Shown here: piece by piece, positions 2,221 to 16,226 of the stretch
How positions within the stretch are numbered: position 1 is the stretch's first letter
How the letters are laid out: every line of letters starts with the position of its first letter
Assembly (NCBI GenBank): GCA_017883235.1
Contig: JADGNY010000061.1
Span: 1-39,471, forward strand
Length of the DNA stretch: 39,471 bases
Source of the DNA: Thermoanaerobaculia bacterium
GTDB lineage: Bacteria > Acidobacteriota > Thermoanaerobaculia > Gp7-AA8
Direction: 5' to 3'
Notes under the pieces: generated by a model
What the model saw: the letters and a program-made list of their open reading frames with translations, nothing else
Told to the model about the DNA's origin: nothing
The model's database searches: none
Position numbers and translations under genes: made by a program

Positions 2221-2304
2221 GAGCTCCTCCGCTCCGGCCGCTTTCGCACGTCCCCCCCCAACCGGTGTGGGTGACGAATGCCAATTCAGGAGGATTCGCT
2301 CCCA

Positions 2305-4356
2305 ATGAGAAAGCTCCTTCCGCTGCTTCTTCTTGCAGCCAGCGTGGCCTCGGCGCAGACGCCGGTGCCCGTGCAACACGAAGTGATCGAGGTAACGGCT
2401 ACGCGCGTAGCCGAGGATGTCCTCAACGTTCCTGCATCCGTGACCGTCATCGACGGCGACGAGCTCCGGGCGCGCAACGCCACCGACCTGGCCTCGGCAT
2501 TGGCGACCGTGGCCGGAGTATCGATTGCGCCCGGCGGTGAAGGCGGACCGGCCGGCGCGGTGCCCGAGATGTGGGGACTCCGCGAGTTCGACGCCTTTCT
2601 GCTCGTCGTCGACGGCGTCCCGTGGGGCGGCGCGTTCAACCCCGACCTCCCCACCCTGGATCTCACCGACGTCGATCGGATCGAAGTCCTCCGTGGCTCG
2701 GCACCGGTCATGTACGGGGCGACGTCGTTCGTCGGCGTGATTCACGTCATCCATCGCGCTCCCGGCGCGCCGGGGACCGGCCGTGTATCGGCCGGCTCGT
2801 ACGGAAGCGGATCGGCCGCGGTCTCTCTGCCACTGTCGCAGACACCCGACCTCCAGCAGTCGATCAGCGCGAATGCCGACCGCAGGGGGTTCCGCGACGA
2901 CAACACCGGCTTCGACCGTTACCACGCGCTCTACCGCGCCTCGGGAACGGCGAGCGGCGGGACGTTTCGCTTCGACGCCGACGTCTCCGCTGTGCGCCAG
3001 GATCCGAACAGTCCTCATCCGCGCATCGGCACCGCGCTCACCCGCGACGTCCCGATCGACGCCAATCACAATCCCGGCGACGCGCACCTCGACCAGGACC
3101 GCATCCATCTCGTCGGCGGCTGGGAGTCGAAGCTGGGCGGATCACCGTGGACCTCGACCATCGCCGTCTCGCATTCGACTTACGGCATCGTGCGCGGCTT
3201 CCTCACCGACGTGTCCGCGGCCAGTCCGAACGCGTTCGGCTTCACGCAGGACCGCACGGTCAATGACGTCTATTTCGATACGCACATCGTCCGCACGATC
3301 TCGCCGGCGTTGCGCGTCGTGGCCGGCTTCGATCATCTCTACGGCAACGCCCACGCGACGAGCGCTACATTCAACTACTTCGCGCCGCTGACCGGCGGCC
3401 GGGGAGAGCGCAGCGGCGATGTTCCTGTCTTCGAACAATTCGATGCACGCGACCGCCGGAACTTCTCCGGTCTCTACGCCAGCTCCCAATGGACTGCCTC
3501 TCCGCGGCTTCACTTCGACCTCGGCGCGCGCCTGAACCGGACGTCCGAGAGCCGCAACACCAACGGCCCCGACGGTCCGCAGTCCGAGACCCGCTCCTTC
3601 ACCCGGCTCTCCGGCAGCGCCGGCGTCGACTACACGCTCTTCACCCGCGACCGCGATGCGATGGTCCTGTTCGCCGACTACCGCAACACCTTCAAGCCGG
3701 CGGCGATCGATTTCGGACCGGAAGCCGAGGTCGACATCCTCAATCCCGAGACCGCATCGAGCTACGAGGTGGGCGCCAAAGGAAGGCTCGATGACAGCCG
3801 CCTTCGCTGGACCGTGTCACTCTTCCAGATGGACTTCTCCAACCTGGTCATCGCCACGACGGTGAATGGCGCGCCCGCGCTCGAGAACGCCGGCAAGGAG
3901 CGTTTCAAGGGAGCGGAGGCGGAGCTCGATTACGAATGGGCATCCGACGTTCATACCCACTTCGGCTACAGCTATCACGACTCGCGGTTTCGCGACTTCG
4001 TGCAGGAGTTCGACCCCGGTGTCCCCACCCAACTGGCGGGCCGAAGGCTGGAGATGACACCCTTCAATCTCGCCGGTGCCGGTGTGCTCTACGCACCGAA
4101 GAGTGGGTTCAACGCCAACGTGCTGGTGAACTACGTCGGCGGCCGCTGGCTGGACATGCGGAACACCGCGCCGGCCAAGCCGTACACGACCTGGTCGGCC
4201 GGCATCGGCTACCGCCTGTCCCACGGTGAGCTCCGCCTCGACGGCTGGAACCTGAGCAACGTCCGCCCCCCGATCGCGGAGAGCGAGTTGGGGGATGCGC
4301 AGTACTACCTTCTGCCCGCCCGAAGCTTCGACATTTCCTATCGCCATTTCTTCTAG
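2305..4356 (+). CDS. TonB-dependent outer-membrane receptor
   Basis: ATG at 2305 is preferred over the in-frame ATG at 2278 because AGGAGGA sits 10 bases ahead and the protein then begins with a proper Sec signal (MRKLLPLLLLAASVASAQ). The product is 683 aa. Right after cleavage comes a TonB-box-like EVIEVTATR. The plug domain covers about residues 35-160, with VPASVTVIDGDEL, LLVVDGVP and the plug-end motif DRIEVLRG-x3-VMYGA. The rest is a beta-barrel rich in Tyr/Arg/Asp strands, ending in the usual terminal aromatic (SYRHFF). Such receptors import siderophores, cobalamin, metals or glycans with TonB-ExbBD energy. The substrate cannot be read from sequence. The copper-enzyme cluster downstream makes a metal or metallophore possible, but there is no direct evidence. 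Confidence 0.93.
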   Translation: MRKLLPLLLLAASVASAQTPVPVQHEVIEVTATRVAEDVLNVPASVTVIDGDELRARNATDLASALATVAGVSIAPGGEGGPAGAVPEMWGLREFDAFLLVVDGVPWGGAFNPDLPTLDLTDVDRIEVLRGSAPVMYGATSFVGVIHVIHRAPGAPGTGRVSAGSYGSGSAAVSLPLSQTPDLQQSISANADRRGFRDDNTGFDRYHALYRASGTASGGTFRFDADVSAVRQDPNSPHPRIGTALTRDVPIDANHNPGDAHLDQDRIHLVGGWESKLGGSPWTSTIAVSHSTYGIVRGFLTDVSAASPNAFGFTQDRTVNDVYFDTHIVRTISPALRVVAGFDHLYGNAHATSATFNYFAPLTGGRGERSGDVPVFEQFDARDRRNFSGLYASSQWTASPRLHFDLGARLNRTSESRNTNGPDGPQSETRSFTRLSGSAGVDYTLFTRDRDAMVLFADYRNTFKPAAIDFGPEAEVDILNPETASSYEVGAKGRLDDSRLRWTVSLFQMDFSNLVIATTVNGAPALENAGKERFKGAEAELDYEWASDVHTHFGYSYHDSRFRDFVQEFDPGVPTQLAGRRLEMTPFNLAGAGVLYAPKSGFNANVLVNYVGGRWLDMRNTAPAKPYTTWSAGIGYRLSHGELRLDGWNLSNVRPPIAESELGDAQYYLLPARSFDISYRHFF

Positions 4357-4881: not shown

Positions 4882-6774
4882 ATGGCAATCATCGACATCT
4901 GGATTCAACTCGAAAACCGGCCGTGGGACTGTTGCCCTAACGGCATCGACCGGATGACCGGCACGCACTTCCCCTCAATCGGTGTCCTGAACGGCCACAA
5001 TGTCTACAAGCCTCTCGGCACGGTGAGCGCCTCAAAGCCATTTGGCGAAGATGCACTCATCTTCCGCCGCTACACGGCCAACTGGGCGGCACCGGATGAC
5101 CGCAAGATCAACCCGTGGGATCTGAATGAGCCCGATCCGACGAATACCGGCACCAAAGGCACCATTCCCGGCCCGGTCATCGAGTGCAACGTCGGCGATA
5201 GCGTCCTCGTTCACTTCCGCAACATGGATTCCCGGACAGGAGTCGATGTACTGGCACGCACGCATAGCATCCATCCGCACGGGATCGTCTTCCAGAACAC
5301 CTCTGACGGCGCGTATCCGCTCTCACCGCCGGATTCGACCCAGCCGGTCGGCGCGGAGGCTGCCCAATGGACCGCCATCGGCATGACCGGCCCGAACAAG
5401 ATGGGCGACCGCGTTCCTCCCGGCAGCACCTTCACCTACACCTGGGACACCCACGGATGGCAGGCCACAGCGGGGATCTGGCTCTATCACGACCATTCCA
5501 TCTGCGACATGGACAACGTGAACCTCGGAGCCATCGGCATTCTCGTCGTGCACAATCTCGCCGACACCAACAACGACTTCGTGATCACCCCCGCGGACCT
5601 GCCGAACGGCTCGTTCACCGGCTCTCCTGTCTCCATCACTTGCTTCCCCTTCCCGCTCAATCCTGCCATCACCACACTTCCCAACGACCTCACCGGGTTG
5701 TCCGTTCCTCGTCCCGTCCCACCCGCGCCGGCTCCTCCCATGCCCGGCATGACGATGTCCGTCCCCGCAACCAAGAAGAAGAAGGGGGCAGCCGCAACTG
5801 CCGCTCCGGTTGTGCCCAAGCCCGGCGCCAACGTCATCGCCACGGTCGGACCACCGATCCTCGACCGTTTGGTGGACCGCGGCGGAACGTTGCTGGAGCT
5901 GGACCAGACGCTCACGACGGTCGTTCGTTTCTGTACCCGCAACTACCGCACGCCGCCGGCCAAGGGGCTGTACCTGATGCTCTTCCACGAATTGACGGGA
6001 GCACCCGGGATGTCAATGGCAATCAACGGCCGGGTCTTACTCGGCAATACGCCGACGATCGTCTCCGGCATTGCCACGAAGATGCGGTTCGGCGTGGTGG
6101 GCATGAACAACAACGCATTCCATACCTTCCACCTTCACGGTCATCGCTGGGTCATTCCTGGTGCGGACGGAACCACACCGGGCGCGATCCAGACGAGCGC
6201 GCAGGTGCAGGCAGTTTCGCAATTCGAGGACACGCGGATCTTCGGTCCGGCCAACTCCTTCGGCTTCACGATCAATGGAGCGGCCGGAAGCTTCATGCGC
6301 GCCGGCGGTCCCTCTCCGAACGATGCCAAGGGCGAGTGGCACATGCACTGTCACGTGCTCTCCCACATGATGGGGGGGATGATGGGCTCCCTGCTCATCG
6401 TAGGCGGAGGGGAGACGGCAAGCACGCTGCCTTCAGGCGTTCCCTGCCCGACAGCCGTCGTGGCCACGCCGAACACCTTCGTCGTCCAGAACACGTTGTT
6501 TACACCAGTCTCGATCACCGCCTCTTCGGGCGCGACGGTGAACTTCGATTTCGAGGAAGCGGGCCATACCGTGACCACCAGCACGGGCTCGGCGAGCAAC
6601 ATCGAAATCAACGGCCCTAACGGCCTCGGAACCAGCCCGACCAACAAGACCGTCGCCGTTACACCGATCCCCACGATGAAGACCTTCATGGTCATGGGTA
6701 ATCTCGGCGATCAGATCAAGTTCGAATGCGGCATCCACGGCCCGAACATGCACGGCACCATCACGATCGTCTAG
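4882..6774 (+). CDS. multicopper oxidase with extra C-terminal cupredoxin domain
   Basis: The protein has 630 residues and probably oxidises phenols or metal ions with reduction of O2 to water. All four copper motifs are present: HPH at 131-133, HDH at 203-205, HTFHLHGH at 414-421, and HCHVLSHMMGGM from 489 (type-1 ligands H414, C490, H495 and probably M500). A separate blue-copper domain follows at about 525-630 with H562 and C616-x2-H619-x3-M623, a complete type-1 set. Residues ~275-315 form a Pro/Met/Lys-rich insert containing MPGMTM and KKKK, possibly a copper-binding or flexible loop. There is no signal peptide, which is unusual for this family. AAAGGAG precedes the ATG. A hairpin follows the gene, then the tyrosinase. 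Substrate is unknown; laccase-like activity is inferred. Confidence 0.93.
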   Translation: MAIIDIWIQLENRPWDCCPNGIDRMTGTHFPSIGVLNGHNVYKPLGTVSASKPFGEDALIFRRYTANWAAPDDRKINPWDLNEPDPTNTGTKGTIPGPVIECNVGDSVLVHFRNMDSRTGVDVLARTHSIHPHGIVFQNTSDGAYPLSPPDSTQPVGAEAAQWTAIGMTGPNKMGDRVPPGSTFTYTWDTHGWQATAGIWLYHDHSICDMDNVNLGAIGILVVHNLADTNNDFVITPADLPNGSFTGSPVSITCFPFPLNPAITTLPNDLTGLSVPRPVPPAPAPPMPGMTMSVPATKKKKGAAATAAPVVPKPGANVIATVGPPILDRLVDRGGTLLELDQTLTTVVRFCTRNYRTPPAKGLYLMLFHELTGAPGMSMAINGRVLLGNTPTIVSGIATKMRFGVVGMNNNAFHTFHLHGHRWVIPGADGTTPGAIQTSAQVQAVSQFEDTRIFGPANSFGFTINGAAGSFMRAGGPSPNDAKGEWHMHCHVLSHMMGGMMGSLLIVGGGETASTLPSGVPCPTAVVATPNTFVVQNTLFTPVSITASSGATVNFDFEEAGHTVTTSTGSASNIEINGPNGLGTSPTNKTVAVTPIPTMKTFMVMGNLGDQIKFECGIHGPNMHGTITIV

Positions 6775-6790
6775 ACGCACTCCACCTGCT

Positions 6791-6837
6791 GGTATGTGGG
6801 CCTGATTCAAGGCCCACATACCACGCACTCATTTTTT
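6791..6837 (+). terminator. hairpin with delayed T-run between oxidase and tyrosinase genes
   Basis: A perfect 13-bp stem (GGTATGTGGGCCT at 6791-6803 with its complement at 6810-6822, loop GATTCA) starts 17 bases after the multicopper oxidase stop. Six T residues follow at 6832-6837, nine bases after the stem. That distance is too long for a standard intrinsic terminator. It may be a partial terminator that lowers expression of the downstream genes, or an mRNA 3'-end stabiliser. Confidence 0.55.
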
Positions 6838-6872: not shown

Positions 6873-9800
6873 ATGGGCTGTCGCAAGAACCAGGCAACTC
6901 TCACCACGGCGGAACGGCAAGCGTTCGTCAATGCCGTCATCAGGCTCAAGAATGAAGTTCCCAGCCAGATGGGGCTGACCAACAGGTACGACGACTACGT
7001 TCAGGTTCACTTGAACGCCATGACGGCGGCGAATGGATGGGCGCACCAGTTACCGGCATTTCTGCCGTGGCATCGCGAGTTTCTGCGCCATTTCGAGCTC
7101 GATCTACAGGCAATCGATCCGACAGTGACCATCCCCTACTGGGACTGGACGGCCGATCAGAATCCAGCCGCGCCGGGAACCCCCTTTACCGCCGACTTCA
7201 TCGGTGGCGACGGAGACGGCGCGGACTCCAGGGTCACCACGGGCGTCTTTGCCTCGGCCAATGGCAAATGGCAATTGAACGTGCTCACGGGGGGCTCCCA
7301 TGATAACAAGCCCTACCTGCGCCGCGAGTTCGGCCTCTCCGCGCCCAACCTCCCTTCGCCGGCACAACGAAACGTTGCGCTGAACAAGACTGTCTATGAC
7401 GTCGCTCCATTCAACAGCGGCAGCAACGATGGATTCAGAAACTTCATCGAGGGCTGGCACTCTACCGGAGGAGGAGCGAACGACGCTCCCCCGCAAAACC
7501 ACAATCGGGTTCACGTCTGGGTCGGCGGCAACATGCTCCCGGCGACGTCGCCGAACGATCCCGTTTTCTGGCTGAACCACTGCAACATCGACCGCTTGTG
7601 GGCGGTCTGGCAGGCCATGCACCCGGCTGCCGCTCCCTACGGTCCCGTCTCCGGCGCGCCAACCGGTCACAACCTCAATGACACGATGATCTTCTTTCAG
7701 GGTGGCCCGGCACCCTGGCCGGACACGTCCACGCCGGCCGGTGTCGTCGACAATCACGCCCTCGGCTACTGGTATGACACCGATCCTCCACGCGTCGTCC
7801 TGCTGACGCCGAGCGTTTCCTTCGTCGACGTTCAGCAAGGGATCGGCGGCACCGGCATCACCACGTATCGCGCCATCAAATTCGAGTGCGAATCGTGTGG
7901 TGACGTCACCCTGGACATCACCGCGGGGCCGACCGCGGGATTCGCCGCTCCGACGCTCACGGAAAACGTCCACCCCAATCACGATCCGACATCGGGACTC
8001 TCGCCGAGCGAGGGGGCCCTGTGGATCTCGTACACCTCGACGACGGCCGGCTCCTCGATCACCGGCAGCGTCACCGTCCGCGCCACCGACGTCAACACCG
8101 GAACGGTCTTCGGCCCGTGGGTCGTCAATCTTTCCGCGAACACGGTGGCCCGCGATGTTTCCGCGGTCGCGCTCGTGCTCGACCGCTCGGGAAGCATGAC
8201 CACGGACGCGGGCAACGGACACCAGCGCGTCGAGCTGATGCGCACCGCGGTGTCGACCTTCATCGATCTCATGCAGGACGGCGACGGCTTATCGATCGTC
8301 CGCTTCGACAATCTCGTCGATACACTCATGACGGTAACCAACGTTGGAGCGATCCCCGGAGGCGCGGGGCGTCTGCAGGCCCAGGACATCGTCACCACGC
8401 ACGACCCGCTCAAGACGCTCGATCCTCGGGGCTCCACGTCGATCGGCGGCGGCATCATCGCCGGCAAGGCCGCTCTCGATGCAGCGTCCGGAACGTTTAC
8501 CAAACGCGCCATGATCGTTCTCACCGACGGCTTGGAGAACACGCCGCCGATGATCATCCCCGACGCCGCCGCGAGCCTCAACGACCACACCTTTGCCATC
8601 GGCTTCGGCCAGGCCGCGGCCATCAGCACCGCGGCACTCAGCTCCATCACCCAGAACCACGGCGGCTACCTGATCGTCACCGGCCCGGTCACTCAGGAAG
8701 AGAACTTCGCGCTCACTGAGTACTTCCTGAAGATCCAGGCCGGCATCAGCAACTCCAGCGCCGTGCTCGATCCCCGAGGGGAGCTCGTTTTCGGGGCGAC
8801 ACACCGGATTCCGTTCCAACTGACCCGAGCCGACTTCGGGGCCGACGTCGTCCTTCTGAGCCCCGCGCCCCAGCTCATCGACATCCGGCTCGAAGCGCCG
8901 GATGGCTCGATCATCGATCCGGCCGTCGCGGGTGCCGAGGCGGCCATCGCCTTCGTCAGTACGCCGCGGGTGAGCTACTACCGCGCCTCGCTGCCAATGC
9001 TGGCCAAAGATCCGAAAGGCAGTCATGCCGGCCAATGGCACGTTCTGCTCAGTCTCAGCGACAAGGCAAGGGGAGCCGAGCGGCAGTTGGCGGCGCGGTT
9101 GTCGCGCGCTGCCCTGCCGTACAGCCTCCTCGTCCACGCGTATTCAAACCTCACCTTCCGCCCGAGCCTCGTGCAATCGGGTTTCGAGCCCGGCGTTGCG
9201 GTCGATCTTCGCGTTGCCATCAACCAGTACGACGTTCCCCTCCCGACCCCGGCCACGGCCTGGGCCGACATCCTGCGCCCCGATGGAACCAGCAGCCTGT
9301 TGATGCTCGACCGCATCGCGGCCGGCCGCTATTCGGCCAGCTTTGTGGCGTCCGATTCCGGCATCTACACCGCCACCATTCGTGCGCGCGGCGTGACGCT
9401 CGAGGGGCAGAAGTTCCATCGCGAGCAGAGGTTCACGGCGGCCGTCTTCGCCGGCGGCAATCAGATCGCCCAGCCGCCAGACGACCGCGCCTGCAAACTG
9501 CTGCATTGCCTGGAGGGATCGATCGGACCGGAGCTCCGGAACGAGCTCGGAAAACGGGGCTTCGACATGAAACACCTCGAGAAGTGTCTCGATGAACAAT
9601 GCCGTGGGTCACACGCCTCGTTAGGCGGCGAGAAGCCGTTCGATCCGCAAGCGCCTGACCTGAAAGCGAGCGTAGGAGGCGTGCAGCAGGCGCGCTTTGA
9701 ACTGATTGCCGGAGAACAGAAAGCGGCCAAACCATTGCCCTTCGCCGCGCTCGTCAAAGGAAAGCGCGTGCACAAACCGAAGGCCGAGCCGATGATCATG

Positions 9801-9905
9801 AACTTCGGGATTGACATGCCGATGGGAAAGAAGAGCAAGATGAAAATGCCGAAGGGGAAAACCAGGGCACGGAAGGGCAAGGCGAAAACGCCGAAGGGCA
9901 GGTAG
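6873..9905 (+). CDS. tyrosinase fused to a von Willebrand factor A domain
   Basis: ATG at 6873 has GGAGG upstream and gives 1010 aa; the frame is open further upstream, into the multicopper oxidase gene. Residues 1-300 are a type-3 copper tyrosinase: CuA H46, H58 and H67 (LPWHREFLRHFE), CuB H210, H214 and H236 (NHNRVHVW and NDPVFWLNHCNIDRLW). This domain should hydroxylate phenols and oxidise catechols to o-quinones. Residues ~310-425 look like a beta domain. Residues ~428-620 are a vWA domain with intact MIDAS (D437-R-S-G-S, T522, D552), a metal-dependent protein-binding fold. Residues ~640-860 are beta-rich. The end carries a Cys-containing segment (C874, C879, C905, C910) and a Lys-rich tail (962-1010, about 14 Lys). 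No signal peptide is visible. The tyrosinase-vWA fusion is not one I know as characterised. Confidence 0.92.
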   Translation: MGCRKNQATLTTAERQAFVNAVIRLKNEVPSQMGLTNRYDDYVQVHLNAMTAANGWAHQLPAFLPWHREFLRHFELDLQAIDPTVTIPYWDWTADQNPAAPGTPFTADFIGGDGDGADSRVTTGVFASANGKWQLNVLTGGSHDNKPYLRREFGLSAPNLPSPAQRNVALNKTVYDVAPFNSGSNDGFRNFIEGWHSTGGGANDAPPQNHNRVHVWVGGNMLPATSPNDPVFWLNHCNIDRLWAVWQAMHPAAAPYGPVSGAPTGHNLNDTMIFFQGGPAPWPDTSTPAGVVDNHALGYWYDTDPPRVVLLTPSVSFVDVQQGIGGTGITTYRAIKFECESCGDVTLDITAGPTAGFAAPTLTENVHPNHDPTSGLSPSEGALWISYTSTTAGSSITGSVTVRATDVNTGTVFGPWVVNLSANTVARDVSAVALVLDRSGSMTTDAGNGHQRVELMRTAVSTFIDLMQDGDGLSIVRFDNLVDTLMTVTNVGAIPGGAGRLQAQDIVTTHDPLKTLDPRGSTSIGGGIIAGKAALDAASGTFTKRAMIVLTDGLENTPPMIIPDAAASLNDHTFAIGFGQAAAISTAALSSITQNHGGYLIVTGPVTQEENFALTEYFLKIQAGISNSSAVLDPRGELVFGATHRIPFQLTRADFGADVVLLSPAPQLIDIRLEAPDGSIIDPAVAGAEAAIAFVSTPRVSYYRASLPMLAKDPKGSHAGQWHVLLSLSDKARGAERQLAARLSRAALPYSLLVHAYSNLTFRPSLVQSGFEPGVAVDLRVAINQYDVPLPTPATAWADILRPDGTSSLLMLDRIAAGRYSASFVASDSGIYTATIRARGVTLEGQKFHREQRFTAAVFAGGNQIAQPPDDRACKLLHCLEGSIGPELRNELGKRGFDMKHLEKCLDEQCRGSHASLGGEKPFDPQAPDLKASVGGVQQARFELIAGEQKAAKPLPFAALVKGKRVHKPKAEPMIMNFGIDMPMGKKSKMKMPKGKTRARKGKAKTPKGR

Positions 9906-9942: not shown

Positions 9943-11487
9943 ATGAACGTGGCCAAGATCGCAACCATCAAGATTCATCCTTCCATCGGGATCGCCAGAA
10001 TCGGAAACAGCCCGGCCGGGTTTTTCATCGGCCCGGAAATACCGGGAGACCATACGCCGCCCGACGGCGGCTACAGGGACGCCCAGGGACGGATCAAACG
10101 TCAGGCAGCCCGCTTTCGGCTGTTTGCCTACGATGCAAAGGGGACGCTCATTCAGGAGATCACATCCAAAGAGGCCGACATCACATGGACGGTCGATCTC
10201 GCCAACACGAAGGCGGCATGGCTCAAGTTTCAAGGCCGCAAATCGGTCACCAGGAAGGATCTGCGCAATGCATCCGTAACGGACCGCGGCACCTTGATGA
10301 TTACGCCCGGACCGCGCTCGGTAACCGGCCCGAATCAGTCCGCCATTTTCGATACCGGCAAGTTTCTCGGCGCCGCCGTTCCCCTGGGTGACATCAACAC
10401 CGACCGGCAAGGCCGGCTGCTCGTTCTTGGCGGCTTCGGACGGTCCGGCTCACCGGAAGGTCTGGAGATCGATGAGAATGAGTTCGCCAATAATGACGGC
10501 TGGCACGATGACGTCTCCGACGGTCCGGTAACCGCCACGGTCACACTCAAGAGAGATGGGTCGACGGTCGAAGCCGTTGGCGCATGGGTGATCTGCGCGG
10601 TGCCGAAATACGCACCTCCCATGTACAACGTCATCACGCTCTATGACGTTCTCATGCAGGTTGCAGTGGACAAGCTGGGCCTGAAACCACCCGCCAAGCC
10701 CTCGTTTACGAAGGATATCTATCCGCTTTTCAAACGGGCCATGCTGATGCGGTGGGTCAGCGCCATGGTGGCGCACCCCTCATCTCATGCGGACCAGCAG
10801 CCGATGCACATGGCCCATCATGGCAGCGTCAAAGGGCCGGCGCACGCGACGCTTCCAGGCGTGATCCCGCCGCCGGGATCCCCGTCCGCGCGCGCGGCGA
10901 TCTTCGCGAAAATGCGCGACCCGGCCATCCCCCGTCAGAAGCTGAGTGGCGAGGCGGACATGCCGATGATCCACTCGGATTACTATCCGAGTGAGTCCAA
11001 TCAGCCATTGACCGATCTCCAGTACGAGAACTTGAAAAAGTGGAAGAACGGCAACTTCATCAACGACTGGTCCGGCCCTCCCACCGTATCCCGAAAGATC
11101 ACACCCGAGGGCCTGGACAGGGCCGGACTCGAAACATGCGTCGGCGGGGCGTTTTATCCAGGCATTGAAGCCAGTTGGATGATGCGTGACACCTTTACAT
11201 ACTCCGAGCCGTTCCGTCTGAGCCACGAGAACCTTGCACCCGGCGACGTCACGAAACAGATGGCAGTACCGTGGCAGGCGGATTTCTCTGATTGCAAGCA
11301 GGAGGGCGAATTAGCCTGGTGGCCCGCGCAGCGTCCGGACGATGTGATCCCCGACGATCATGTCAAACAGGTTCCGTGGACGCGCGGCCTGGTCTCGAGC
11401 ATGGCCGAAATGGTCCAGAACTGGCACCGTCTCGGATTTGTCGTCAAGAAGGGCTCCCGATACGTTGAAACGGAGCGCGAAGGCTAA
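9943..11487 (+). CDS. LodA-like quinoprotein amino-acid oxidase
   Basis: The protein has 514 residues and belongs to the LodA/GoxA family. Those enzymes oxidise the epsilon-amine of lysine (LodA) or glycine (GoxA), releasing ammonia and H2O2, with a cysteine tryptophylquinone (CTQ) cofactor made from their own Cys and Trp. The family N terminus IHPSIGIARIGNS is at 11-23. The cofactor Cys motif ETCVGGAFYPGIE places the candidate at C399, and AWWPAQRPDD places the candidate Trp at W459 or W460. LodA of Marinomonas is 726 aa, so this is a compact member. There is no Sec signal, as in LodA. ATG 9943 follows GAGGA very closely; GTG at 9949 has better spacing. It lies 37 bases after the tyrosinase and is followed by its maturation partner LodB. 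Lysine versus another amine substrate cannot be decided from sequence. Confidence 0.9.
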   Translation: MNVAKIATIKIHPSIGIARIGNSPAGFFIGPEIPGDHTPPDGGYRDAQGRIKRQAARFRLFAYDAKGTLIQEITSKEADITWTVDLANTKAAWLKFQGRKSVTRKDLRNASVTDRGTLMITPGPRSVTGPNQSAIFDTGKFLGAAVPLGDINTDRQGRLLVLGGFGRSGSPEGLEIDENEFANNDGWHDDVSDGPVTATVTLKRDGSTVEAVGAWVICAVPKYAPPMYNVITLYDVLMQVAVDKLGLKPPAKPSFTKDIYPLFKRAMLMRWVSAMVAHPSSHADQQPMHMAHHGSVKGPAHATLPGVIPPPGSPSARAAIFAKMRDPAIPRQKLSGEADMPMIHSDYYPSESNQPLTDLQYENLKKWKNGNFINDWSGPPTVSRKITPEGLDRAGLETCVGGAFYPGIEASWMMRDTFTYSEPFRLSHENLAPGDVTKQMAVPWQADFSDCKQEGELAWWPAQRPDDVIPDDHVKQVPWTRGLVSSMAEMVQNWHRLGFVVKKGSRYVETEREG

Positions 11488-11517: not shown

Positions 11518-11566
11518 ATGGTGGACGAGCCTTGGGCAATCAGCGCAGCCGGCCGTGCCGGCCTAG
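11518..11566. repeat. dispersed 48-bp repeat at the lodB start, copy 1
   Basis: This stretch matches the reverse complement of 22301-22348 at roughly 40 of 48 positions, including the shared blocks CGAGCCTTGGGCAA and GCCGGCCGTGCCGGC. The lodB start region lies inside it. The repeat is therefore a mobile or amplified intergenic element that abuts or supplies the lodB translation start. Confidence 0.75.
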
Positions 11567-12683
11567 CATCGACGTGGCCGTGCTCGGCGGAGGGCCCGCC
11601 GGCGCGGCCACGGCAATCGCTCTTTGCCAGCGCGGACATTCGGCCGTCGTCATCGAGAGCTCCGGGTATGGCAATGTGCGCGTCGGCGATACATTCCCCC
11701 CTCGCATTCGCATCCCTCTGGTCAAGCTCGGCGTGTGGGAGCAGTTCGCGGCGGACAGACACGTACCAGCCCCCGGCATCCGCTCCGCGTGGGGACAAGA
11801 CGATCTTTACGACAACGACTTCATCTACAGCCCCTATGGCGTGGGATGGCACATTGACCGCGGCCGCTTCGATTCCATGCTGGCCCGCTGTGCGGAGGAA
11901 GCAGGAGCGATTGTCTATCGCCAGGCGGTGCTGTTGTCATGTCTCGAAGATGAGAACGGCAATTGGCATATCGAGATCGCGGAGAACGATCGCCGGCACC
12001 ACCTCCGCGCTGGTCTGGTCGTCGATGCCACCGGCCGTTCATCCTCATTTGCGCAAAAACAGGGCATTCCGCGGATTCCATACGATCGCCTCATTGGGGT
12101 AATCGGTTTCGCCACATCGCGGACGCCGGAGAAGGAGCCCTCATCATTCACTCTCATCGAAGCCGTCGAGTCCGGATGGTGGTACTCGACCGTGCTCCCC
12201 GGTTCCCGCGCCGTGGCCGCGTACATGACCGACTCGGATCTGTACGGCAAGGCACAACGGCTGGAAAGCGACTACTGGATAAGCCAATTGCGTCGGACAC
12301 TCCACATTCAGCCGAGCGTGAGTGCCTGCACCCTGGATGAGTCCAACCATGTCGTGGCCGCAAACACCTCCCGGCTCGAACGGCTGACCGGGAAGAATTG
12401 GCTGGCCGTGGGAGACGCTGCCATGGCATTCGATCCTCTCTCAGGCCAAGGTGTACACAAAGCTCTGCAGTCGGCACTGAAGGCCGCAGACGCGATCGAT
12501 CAGCGGCTATCCGGATCCATCGAAGCGCTGCCGGATTACGAAGCCGCGATGACGCGCGATTTCGACGAGTACCGGCGCACGCGGAACAGCATCTACGGCA
12601 AAGAGCGGCGATGGCCGGAGGCGCCGTTCTGGCAGCGGCGGCATCCCCACGAAGTCGCTACTGCTTTTCCAGCAGATCCTTGA
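11532..12683 (+). CDS. LodB-like flavoprotein, LodA maturation factor
   Basis: The protein has 383 residues and is related to FAD-dependent halogenases and monooxygenases. The N-terminal dinucleotide fold IDVAVLGGGPAGAATAIAL is at ~12-30, GWHIDRGRFDSML is the substrate/FAD segment, and the second FAD motif GDAAMAFDPLSGQGVHKAL is near 295-313. LodB proteins are needed to form the CTQ cofactor in the partner LodA, and the adjacent LodA-like gene supports that role. The start is uncertain: TTG at 11532 lies in a dispersed repeat without a clear Shine-Dalgarno, and GTG at 11573 is possible but would trim the N terminus very short. The gene ends with a 26-base tail-to-tail overlap with pilT. Confidence 0.88.
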   Translation: MGNQRSRPCRPSIDVAVLGGGPAGAATAIALCQRGHSAVVIESSGYGNVRVGDTFPPRIRIPLVKLGVWEQFAADRHVPAPGIRSAWGQDDLYDNDFIYSPYGVGWHIDRGRFDSMLARCAEEAGAIVYRQAVLLSCLEDENGNWHIEIAENDRRHHLRAGLVVDATGRSSSFAQKQGIPRIPYDRLIGVIGFATSRTPEKEPSSFTLIEAVESGWWYSTVLPGSRAVAAYMTDSDLYGKAQRLESDYWISQLRRTLHIQPSVSACTLDESNHVVAANTSRLERLTGKNWLAVGDAAMAFDPLSGQGVHKALQSALKAADAIDQRLSGSIEALPDYEAAMTRDFDEYRRTRNSIYGKERRWPEAPFWQRRHPHEVATAFPADP

Positions 12684-13722
12684 ACTGCTCTTTATCGATG
12701 GCCTTGTCGTACGCGGCGCGGGCGGTAACGGTGCCGGCCTCGTAGAGGCGGCGGATGGAGCTGTCCATGTCGATCATCCCCTGATTGACGCCGGTCTGGA
12801 TGGCGCTGGTCACCTGCGAGGTCTTTCCCTCCCGGATCATGTTGCCGATGGCGGGAGAGGCGAAGAGGATCTCCAGGGCGGCCACGCGGCCGCCGCCGAC
12901 CTTGGGCATGAGCTGCTGGGCCACCACGCCGCGGATCGTTTCGCCGAGGACGTTGCGGATGCCTTCCTGCTCCGGGGCAGGGAAGACGCTGATGATGCGG
13001 TCCATGGTCTTGGCGGCGTTGTTCGTGTGCAGCGTGCCGAAGACCAGCGTGCCGCGCTCGGCGGCGGAAAGGGCCATGGCGATGGTCTCCAGATCGCGCA
13101 TCTCGCCGACCAGGATCACGTCCGGGTCTTCGCGGCCCGCGGCCTTGAGCGCTTCGGCGAACGACTTCGCGTGCGAGCCGATCTCGCGCTGGTGCAGCAG
13201 GCACTTCTTGTTCGGATGGACGAACTCGATCGGATCTTCGATAGTGATGATGTGCAGGCTGCGGGTCTCGTTGATCAGATCGATGATGGCGGCCAGCGTG
13301 GTCGACTTCCCCGATCCGGTCGGGCCGGTGACGAGCACGAGACCGCTGCGGATCGAGGCGATGCGGCGCACCTGATCGGGCAGCCCGAGCTGCTCGAGCG
13401 TCATGATCTTGGTCGGAATGACCCGGAAAACCGCGCCGCCGCCGCGTTGCTGGCGGAAGAGATTGACGCGATAGCGGGCCACTCCGGGAATCTCGTAGGA
13501 GAAGTCGATGTCGCCGGACTTGAGATAGTCGGTCCACAGCCGTTCCGGCGTGACCGGCTTGAGCATCTCCGTGAAGTCGATCTCGGAGATCGTGCGGTAG
13601 CGGATCGATTCCATCATCCCCGAGGCACGCAGCATCGGAGGGCGGCCGACGGTGAGGTGAAAGTCCGACGCGCCGCGGTCGTTCATCAACTTGAGGAAAC
13701 GATCGATCTTGTTCGCGGCCAT
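12658..13722 (-). CDS. pilT: PilT-type type IV pilus retraction ATPase
   Basis: The protein has 354 aa, the usual PilT length. The N-terminal PAS-like part (RGASDFHLTVGRPP) is followed by a RecA-like core: Walker A GPTGSGKST at 133-141, the Asp box IEDPIEFVHP at ~161, Walker B ILVGEMRD ending near 210, and an intact His box GTLHTNNA at 229-236. The C-terminal segment AIGNMIREGKTSQ is close to the PilT AIRNLIRE motif. It drives pilus depolymerisation at the inner membrane for twitching motility and adhesion. The start codon overlaps the stop of the upstream HEAT-PilT gene (TAATG), so the two are translationally coupled. Confidence 0.95.
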   Translation of the reverse strand: MAANKIDRFLKLMNDRGASDFHLTVGRPPMLRASGMMESIRYRTISEIDFTEMLKPVTPERLWTDYLKSGDIDFSYEIPGVARYRVNLFRQQRGGGAVFRVIPTKIMTLEQLGLPDQVRRIASIRSGLVLVTGPTGSGKSTTLAAIIDLINETRSLHIITIEDPIEFVHPNKKCLLHQREIGSHAKSFAEALKAAGREDPDVILVGEMRDLETIAMALSAAERGTLVFGTLHTNNAAKTMDRIISVFPAPEQEGIRNVLGETIRGVVAQQLMPKVGGGRVAALEILFASPAIGNMIREGKTSQVTSAIQTGVNQGMIDMDSSIRRLYEAGTVTARAAYDKAIDKEQFKDLLEKQ

Positions 13723-16226
13723 TACATCTTTCCTCGGGCGATGAATTCGGCGCTAACCATCGGTTCGAAGTCTTCTTTCTTCAGCGCGGCCAGATACGCC
13801 GTCTCCGGGCTGATCTGATCGCGGCGGAGGAGATCCTTCAGCGCCTCGTCGAACGTCTGCATCCCCAGCGAACGGCCGATCTGCATCGCCGAATAGATCT
13901 GGTAGGTCTTCTCGTCGCGGATCATCGTGCCGATGTTGCTGGTCCCCTTCAGCACCTCGAACGCCGCCACCTGGCGGCGCCCTTCTTTGGCGGGCAGGAG
14001 CCGTTGGGCGATGCAGTACTTGAGTGACTCGGAGAGCGACGCGCGCACCTGCGGCTGCTCGTCTACGGGGAAACTGGAGAGAATGCGATCGATGGCCTTC
14101 GGCGCGCTCGTCGAGTTCAACGTACCGAGGACGATGTGGCCGGTCTCGGCGGCGGTAAGGGCGAGCGAAATCGACTCGTTGTCGCGCAGCTCGCCGATCA
14201 CGATCACGTCAGGATCCTCGCGCAGCGCGGCGCGCAACGCGCGGGCGAACGATTCGGTGTGCGATCCCACCTCGCGCTGGTTGACCAGACAGTTCTTGAA
14301 CGGATGGACGAACTCGACCGGATCCTCCATCGTCAGGATGTGATCGCTGCGCGTCTCGTTGAAGAGATTCACCAGCGCGGCCAGGGTCGTCGACTTGCCC
14401 GATCCGGACGGACCGCAGATCAGCACCAGCCCCTGGTGATAGTCGGAAATCTCGGCCAGATGCGCGGGCAGTCCGAGCTCGACGATCGTGGGAGGTTTCT
14501 CGGGAATGACGCGGAACACACCGTTGTAGCCGCGGTGATCGTAGAAGACGTTCGCCCGATAACGGCCGCCCTGCGGGATGACGTAACAGAAATCGATCTG
14601 GTGCGTCTTCTCCAGCGTGTTCCACTGCGGCTCGGTGAGCACTTCCTTGAGCATGGCCTCGGTCTGCGCGGCCGTGAAGGGATCGCCCTGTGCACGCAGC
14701 AGGTCGGCGGCAAGGCGGACGATCGGCGGCTGGCTGACGGAGAGATGAAAATCCGAGGCGCCTTGATTGCGCGTGGCGATCAACAGCGTGTTGAGGCGCG
14801 CCTCGCCCTGTGTGCCCGAGACGGCCATGGCCGTCTTGCGAATGGCGTCCACCTGCGACTGCGAATTGCGATCGGCCCGGGCCAGCTCGTCGAGAATCTC
14901 GATGGCGTGCGTGCGCACGCCGCGATCCTGATCGCTTTGGGCCACGCTGGTGAGGGCGTTGAGAACCTGTGGATGTTTGAACTGCTTCAGCGCCAGCATC
15001 ACCTCGATGCGCACGTCGGGGGCGGGATCGGCAAGCATTCGCCCGAGGGCTGGGAGTGCGCGCGGATCGCCGATGCGGCCGAGTGCTTCGATCGCCGCTC
15101 GCTTGATCTCGGCATCGGCCAACGTGGCCACCAGCGGCTCGACGGCGCGCGGATCTTTCATGCGCCCCAGGGTGTCCGCGGCGGAGATACGGATCCACCA
15201 GTCGGCGTCGCGCAGCAACTGAATCGTGGCCGGCACGATCCGGACGTCGTCGAAGCCGGCGGCCACGGCGATGGCGCCGGAGCGGACATCGGGATCGGGA
15301 TCCTGCAGAAGCTCGATGACCGGATCGACGAGCGCGTTACCGAATTCGCGCAGCGACTCCAGGGCGCGGTCGCGCGCGAAGCCGGCCAGCGTCGCCGAGA
15401 AGCGGATGTAGCGCTTGATCACACCGGGCGGATCGCCGATGCCGAGAAGAATTTTGAGAACCGACGTGCGCGTCGCCGCACTGCCTGAAGCCAGCGCCGG
15501 AAGCAGCCGCTCCGCGAATGCCACCCCCTGCCCCGCGGCCGTCCGCGTCATGGCCTCGACGATGATCTGCTGCAGGGCATAGCCTGCCTGCGGCAGCGCC
15601 TCGATGAGCAGGTCGAGCGAATGCTGCGGTGCGCGGGCGGCCAGGACCTCGATCACCTTGTCACGAATGGCCGCGTCAGGGTCAGCGGCCATACGGCGCC
15701 AGCGTTTTACGCGGCTCTCGTCGGGCTCGATCGCCGCCAGCTTGTTGAGGAACGGCATCCGCTCTTCGGTGCTGCCTGCCGACGCGAGCTGCCACAGGAT
15801 CGGCTCAATCTGCCTGCTGAGAGGGGCCTCGGCCAACAGGCGCCGCGTCGCTTCCTGCAGCTCGCGCGTCTCTTTCGTCTCCTTCGCGGGCGGCGCGAGC
15901 AACTGCACGAAGCGCGAATCCATCCCCGGCAGCATCAGCGTGAAGAGGCCGGCCGCGGCGGCGCGGAGGGCCTGTTCCGGCTTGCCCTTCGACTCGCCGA
16001 GGAAGACGTCGAGCGTCTCCCCGTCACGGATGCGGGTCAGCACGCGCGCGGCGGTGTCGCGCAGCGCCCGATCCGGACGGAACAGCATCCAGACGACGTC
16101 GCGTGCGCGAACGCCCTCCGCCGATTCGACCCGGCCGAGAAGCTCGTCGCGCTCTTCCTGCGTGGCGTACGACTTCGCCGCCAGCCGCTTCACCGCGTCG
16201 CTGACGTCAGAAGAGAAAAGGGCCAT
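13722..16226 (-). CDS. HEAT-repeat protein fused to a PilT-like ATPase
   Basis: The protein has 834 aa. Residues 1 to ~465 are helical HEAT/PBS-lyase-like repeats, for example DPVIELLQDPDPDVRSGAI and DPRALPALGRMLADPAPDVR. Residues ~477-834 are a full PilT/PilU-type ATPase with RNQGASDFHLSVSQPP, Walker A GPSGSGKST at 605-613, Asp box MEDPVEFVHP, and Walker B VIVIGELRD around 675-682. The His box that reads GTLHTN in the neighbour is GTLNSTSA here, so the conserved His is lost, and AIGNMIRE is replaced by NIGTMIRD. It may be a PilU-like accessory motor that works with PilT, with the HEAT region as docking arm; this is inferred from coupling and sequence. It is the first gene of the two-gene minus-strand operon. 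Confidence 0.93.
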   Translation of the reverse strand: MALFSSDVSDAVKRLAAKSYATQEERDELLGRVESAEGVRARDVVWMLFRPDRALRDTAARVLTRIRDGETLDVFLGESKGKPEQALRAAAAGLFTLMLPGMDSRFVQLLAPPAKETKETRELQEATRRLLAEAPLSRQIEPILWQLASAGSTEERMPFLNKLAAIEPDESRVKRWRRMAADPDAAIRDKVIEVLAARAPQHSLDLLIEALPQAGYALQQIIVEAMTRTAAGQGVAFAERLLPALASGSAATRTSVLKILLGIGDPPGVIKRYIRFSATLAGFARDRALESLREFGNALVDPVIELLQDPDPDVRSGAIAVAAGFDDVRIVPATIQLLRDADWWIRISAADTLGRMKDPRAVEPLVATLADAEIKRAAIEALGRIGDPRALPALGRMLADPAPDVRIEVMLALKQFKHPQVLNALTSVAQSDQDRGVRTHAIEILDELARADRNSQSQVDAIRKTAMAVSGTQGEARLNTLLIATRNQGASDFHLSVSQPPIVRLAADLLRAQGDPFTAAQTEAMLKEVLTEPQWNTLEKTHQIDFCYVIPQGGRYRANVFYDHRGYNGVFRVIPEKPPTIVELGLPAHLAEISDYHQGLVLICGPSGSGKSTTLAALVNLFNETRSDHILTMEDPVEFVHPFKNCLVNQREVGSHTESFARALRAALREDPDVIVIGELRDNESISLALTAAETGHIVLGTLNSTSAPKAIDRILSSFPVDEQPQVRASLSESLKYCIAQRLLPAKEGRRQVAAFEVLKGTSNIGTMIRDEKTYQIYSAMQIGRSLGMQTFDEALKDLLRRDQISPETAYLAALKKEDFEPMVSAEFIARGKM

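Follow-up and report, generated by a model that had tools for sequence, protein, structure and literature searches.

The locus analysed here raises the question of what the tyrosinase of a soil-type bacterium does when it is joined, in one polypeptide, to a vWA domain with a MIDAS. The gene lies at 6873..9905 (+) of the window, by which we mean the whole analysed stretch of 39,471 nt, and encodes 1010 aa in a single open frame, running uninterrupted from an ATG at 6873, which is preceded by a GGAGG-type ribosome site, to the stop codon at 9903-9905. Profiles for both parts exceed their Pfam cut-offs, with 147.7 bits for Tyrosinase PF00264 (cut-off 22.6, E 8e-43), 34.1 bits for VWA_2 PF13519 (cut-off 27, E 5e-8) and 28.1 bits for VWA PF00092 (cut-off 23.8). 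A sequence-only reading of this DNA had left its vWA assignment to such searches, which do detect the domain. An assembly chimera of two otherwise separate genes, which that reading had also considered, could be ruled out, since the same fusion is found in five other genomes, in two cases on complete plasmids, and thus recurs in six genomes. The fusion ORF is real and its architecture is confirmed, with one polypeptide that combines a copper oxidase of type 3 and a MIDAS-bearing vWA domain.

The head (residues 1-304; 6873..7784, +) belongs to the type-3 copper tyrosinases by its PF00264 score and by a complete set of six copper-ligand histidines, H46, H58 and H67 at CuA and H210, H214 and H236 at CuB (codons at 7008, 7044, 7071, 7500, 7512 and 7578, +). 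Asn N211 follows directly on the first CuB histidine, and phmmer relates the head to the Streptomyces tyrosinases 1wx2 and 6j2u at E ~1e-65. Behind it, a beta-sandwich domain (residues ~306-429; 7788..8159, +), delineated from predicted strands and conserved among the first five module proteins aligned, leads into the vWA domain (residues ~430-625; 8160..8747, +). Here, Pfam scores and fold matches coincide with an intact MIDAS, in which the DxSxS motif (D437-x-S439-x-S441), T522 and D552 are placed on a vWA fold and are invariant across the module alignment. The claim that copper ligands and MIDAS are both intact thus holds for all six histidines and all five MIDAS residues. Two further beta-rich domains (residues ~630-862; 8760..9458, +) are predicted from their strands with pLDDT mostly 70-95 and give weak filamin-type Ig matches. 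They are followed by a Cys-containing three-helix segment (residues ~870-912; 9480..9608, +), in which positions C10, L11 and C36 of alignment A6 are invariant in 7 proteins. That this helical end acts as a sorting signal of general use could be ruled out for the genomes searched, where it occurs in a single copy per genome and only on module proteins. The chain closes with a basic tail (residues 911-1010; 9603..9902, +; net charge +17), recognised by a composition test and by pLDDT <30. The three beta-rich domains, the helical segment and the recurrence of the back half on other enzymes had been overlooked in the sequence-only reading.

For the back half, referred to as the module, a model built from nine sequences reached a mean pLDDT of 75 and shows the beta-sandwich, the vWA domain, two beta-rich domains and a short helical bundle. 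The full-length model, with a mean pLDDT of 50 and a head modelled with low confidence, is usable for the module only. The vWA domain of the module model matches solved vWA domains with Z ~22, among them inter-alpha-inhibitor heavy chain 1 (ITIH1) with Z 22.4, and the vWA domain of CLCA1 with a lower Z of 18.4. CLCA1 is also the top-ranked fold match of the full-length model (Z 15.9), and sequence-profile matches are led by mussel byssus PTMP1 and CLCA1. CLCA1 and the inter-alpha-inhibitor heavy chain are both extracellular MIDAS proteins. In animal CLCA proteins, a metalloprotease is followed by vWA, DUF1973 and fibronectin III (PMC3650047), and the fusion protein resembles this order in that an enzyme head precedes a MIDAS vWA domain, for which CLCA1 is among the best fold matches, and two beta-rich domains predicted at the positions of DUF1973 and fibronectin III. 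Neither of these two families, nor any other Pfam profile, is matched in the module beyond the vWA domain (window protein at E 0.1; relatives L014, L015 and L016 at E 1), and the post-vWA domains of CLCA are missing from the fold-match lists, with which a CLCA likeness is still compatible. In contrast to CLCA, the fusion protein carries a tyrosinase instead of the CLCA_N head, an extra beta-sandwich before the vWA domain and the Cys-containing helical end, and it scores 24.7 against the cut-off of 900.85 of the CLCA profile TIGR00868. Since the CLCA_N head is missing, it is not a CLCA family member.

Searches with the full protein and with the module alignment retrieved the complete back half in 7 other proteins. 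Including the window, six proteins carry a tyrosinase head on the full module, the others being L025 from the same class as the window organism, L040 and L067 from the same phylum, L014 on a complete plasmid of Microvirga ossetica and L015 on a complete plasmid of Haloarcula. The module is additionally found behind an M14 carboxypeptidase head in Caballeronia insecticola (L016) and behind an M64 (IgA-peptidase-like) head in the phylum of the window organism (L026). The M64 version matches the CLCA order, and among protease families M64 is reportedly the one nearest to CLCA. The window module shares 46% identity with that of the M64 protein but only 37% and 41% with those of the tyrosinase fusions L025 and L040, respectively, and the module tree groups the modules of the window, L040 and the M64 protein in one clade with support 96/99. 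We therefore conclude that catalytic heads have been exchanged or recombined between modules. A single origin of the tyrosinase fusions is not apparent from the head tree, which requires three changes and has poor support.

The module is rare, being found in 3 of the 396 genomes that sampled the phylum, as full-length matches in 3 of 278 genomes of one order and in 3 plasmid records. The complete module is present in none of 396 genomes from the phylum of an actinobacterial relative and is missing from two same-genus genomes. One genome of the window organism's phylum encodes an ADOP-family permease over its cut-off, which suggests Acidobacteriota. In database records the relatives bear generic names, 'tyrosinase family protein' and 'VWA domain-containing protein'. 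In more distant relatives, the vWA domain and the domains following it are preceded by a trypsin head (L042) or by Ig domains of the ASH type (L041, L043). The trypsin-like proteins of L042 (2334-5276, -) and L013, whose vWA region is related, have a hydrophobic C-terminal stretch resembling a membrane helix. A phage or viral origin was rejected, as no phage match was found and viral contigs gave only weak vWA-range matches, and a defence system was rejected, as PADLOC gave no match. Judged by its distribution, the back half looks like a rare, swappable module and a reusable docking arm instead of a one-off. We give somewhat under an even chance to the broader view of a rare prokaryotic CLCA-like chassis that is swapped among tyrosinase, M14 and M64 heads in bacteria and haloarchaea and would deliver the protein-modifying chemistry needed to one kind of target, the tyrosinase head then being a docked, quinone-producing crosslinker.

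We propose, with a probability of roughly 0.5, a model in which the tyrosinase is docked by its module on a ligand of the MIDAS, and the laccase and the LodA/GoxA-type enzyme encoded beside it act on identical or nearby substrates. The head would oxidise phenols, possibly protein tyrosines, to o-quinones, and the back half would bind a partner surface or matrix via a divalent metal, so that quinone chemistry stays confined to the vicinity. Phenol oxidation, H2O2 and carbonyl products could be contributed by the laccase and the LodA/GoxA-type oxidase next door, and together the enzymes would form a system for crosslinking or antimicrobial oxidation at close range. Three elements of this model are inferred, namely that the module binds its ligand through a metal, that the protein acts extracellularly and that it cooperates with the oxidases beside it. 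In line with docking, the tyrosinase, M14 and M64 heads are all able to act on proteins. That peptidases carry the same module suggests a docking arm of general use among prokaryotes, the role of a MIDAS vWA domain on secreted-type enzymes becomes testable by head exchange, and targeted tyrosinase crosslinkers might be modelled on this natural protein. LodA of Marinomonas is secreted (PMC2855505). No recognisable signal sequence is present at the start of any of the proteins, and the extracellular location is consequently only putative.

The vWA domain could instead serve assembly or regulation. In a further scenario it would provide the docking site at which metal is inserted, in the way NorD-type vWA proteins work with MoxR ATPases, and the protein would be intracellular, acting like MelD2 against toxic phenols. 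The fusion protein without signal sequence would suit this role, the three heads found on the full module are all metalloenzymes, tyrosinase MelD2 is not secreted (PMC2855505), and NorQ/NorD provide a precedent (PMC9976466). However, no MoxR-type gene is present among the genes annotated beside the window fusion gene, the more distant vWA relative L042 carries a trypsin head, which is not a metalloenzyme, and none of the leading multi-domain fold matches resembles NorD. We consider metal insertion very unlikely.

The oxidases invoked in the docking model flank the fusion gene. Upstream, a laccase-like multicopper oxidase of 630 aa with a C-terminal cupredoxin-like domain (4882..6774, +) was recognised by PF07731/PF07732, by two-domain laccases in the PDB and by HxH copper motifs in its sequence. 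It is separated from the tyrosinase gene by a terminator- or attenuator-like hairpin (6791..6822, +), a 13-bp perfect repeat with a 6-nt loop and a T6 stretch 9 nt later (to 6837), which folds with dG -38.5 and z -5.46 and was not flagged by a consensus scan. Given this strong hairpin, oxidase and tyrosinase may be separate transcripts, and a single transcript is not to be assumed. Further upstream lies a TonB-dependent receptor (2278-4356, +), whose best NCBIfam match, a siderophore receptor family, is below cut-off. Downstream, a LodA/GoxA-like CTQ oxidase of 514 aa (9943..11487, +; PF17990 252 bits, PF18417 103 bits) has C451 and W460 aligned, in low-scoring segments, with the CTQ residues C516 and W581 of LodA (2ymw/3weu). 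A LodB-like FAD protein (11532..12683, +, start approximate), with Trp_halogenase and FAD_binding_3 over cut-off, follows directly. Beyond it, a PilT-type pilus ATPase with N-terminal HEAT repeats (13725-16226, -) adjoins a second PilT-type gene (12661-13722).

A similar set of genes is known from the LodA group ID loci, for which a 2015 survey described a LodA-like gene, a tyrosinase and a multicopper oxidase (PMC4417212). The Bradyrhizobium loci of this group and the window share LodA-like, LodB-like, tyrosinase and multicopper oxidase genes. Unlike all but one of the group members, which hold a 138-142-aa gene between lodA and lodB, the window has no small gene between the end of the lodA-like gene at 11487 and the start of the lodB-like gene at ~11532. 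The survey mentions no vWA domain on the tyrosinase. Among the fusion loci examined, the window is the only one with the LodA/oxidase neighbourhood, so cooperation with neighbouring oxidases is not a conserved trait. The pairing of oxidase and tyrosinase is moreover independent of the module, since the relative G484 encodes a 55% identical multicopper oxidase followed ~35 bp later by a bare 313-aa tyrosinase without vWA domain. In the same genome as the window, a second LodA-like protein (L020 259-3174, -) carries ~340 extra residues without Pfam match before LodA_N; some LodA-like proteins carry catalase-fold domains (PMC4417212). In genome G1240 (L067 1-5722, -), the same-strand genes after the tyrosinase-vWA gene are a gene without Pfam match, a TcA TcB-binding gene and an SpvB/TcdB gene; such Tc/SpvB-type genes were not seen at the other fusion loci examined.

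Among characterised tyrosinases, the head is closest in type to Streptomyces MelC2, being 43-48% identical to actinobacterial tyrosinases and sharing the six histidines and the Asn after the first CuB histidine. It differs by the ~700 extra residues of module and tail, and the fusion protein scores 273.6 bits against the MelC2 equivalog cut-off of 450. No MelC1 caddie (PF06236) was found in the window genome at E 0.1 or in the 98-bp gap before the fusion gene. Bacterial tyrosinases described so far rely on a caddie, on a beta-rich extension at the C-terminus or on neither of the two (PMC9454253; PMC10526336), and it is conceivable that the back half is a built-in lid or folding aid, in which the beta-sandwich directly behind the head replaces the caddie or the latent-type extension and blocks or loads the copper site until released. 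The latent tyrosinases of Ralstonia, Burkholderia and Verrucomicrobium likewise have a beta-rich domain directly behind the catalytic head; their extension, however, comprises ~17 kDa and is removed for activation, while that of the window protein comprises ~65 kDa with a vWA domain and is common to peptidases. The same sandwich stands behind M14 and M64 heads, neither of which requires a lid over a copper site, and Bacillus-type tyrosinases need neither caddie nor extension. Three tyrosinase fusions (L014, L015, L025) furthermore have their own small gene in the caddie position. Its homology to caddies is weak: the Haloarcula gene (L015) is weakly like MelC1 (9.7 bits, with 1 of 2000 shuffles as good), and those of L014 and L025 were rejected as caddies, their MelC1 scores being no better than shuffles. 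We consider a function as lid or folding aid unlikely. A survey of wetland tyrosinases distinguishes three layouts, caddie, lid extension and bare, and its longest enzyme has 701 residues (PMC9454253); beside these layouts, an enzyme carrying a surface-binding type of module would constitute a fourth. Full-text searches of open-licence papers found no account of a vWA domain on a bacterial tyrosinase, in agreement with the sequence-only reading, for which no characterised protein of such design was known. While tyrosinase, vWA domain and the LodA/tyrosinase/multicopper oxidase neighbourhood are already known, their combination is undescribed in the literature searched.

The tail had attracted attention as a possible built-in crosslinking substrate. 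Its end (residues 962-1010; 9756-9902, +), estimated at about 14 Lys, contains exactly 14 in 49 residues, whereas Lys makes up 2.3% of the rest of the protein (binomial P 3e-12), and none of the other window ORFs of at least 150 aa has a comparable C-terminal end. In principle, these amines could serve as substrate for head quinones or for aldehydes produced by the LodA neighbour, leading to self-polymerisation. The predicted disorder of the tail and the similar length and charge of the tails of L040 and L067 (+14 and +18), both from the same phylum, would suit such a role, and quinones attack protein nucleophiles in general, although thiols are their most common partners (PMC11608171). However, the tail is missing from three of the six tyrosinase fusions: beyond the helical end, L014 and L015 stop almost at once, and L025 continues for 55 residues whose charge is near neutral. 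In the window, L040 and L067, it spans 100-110 residues with a net charge of +14 to +18 and aligns poorly. Owing to this restriction to same-phylum fusions, with like length and charge but little shared sequence, we regard the tail as a lineage feature kept for its composition. The suggestion that the LodA-type neighbour acts on lysine fared no better, as this short protein scores higher against GoxA (321.7 of 750 bits) than against LodA (219.1 of 600), below both equivalog cut-offs, which leaves lysine as a putative substrate. GoxA is a glycine oxidase. Disordered tails of basic character more commonly attach to surfaces or acidic polymers, and the composition of the present tail appears compatible with such binding as much as with crosslinking. 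We hold a built-in amine substrate to be possible but very unlikely, and docking is favoured over tail chemistry because the vWA half is common to M14 and M64 peptidases. The small genes preceding the tail-less fusions lie at 8747-9001 (L014), 8800-9000 (L015) and 8460-9023 (L025), the last being Lys-rich in the N-terminal half of its product.
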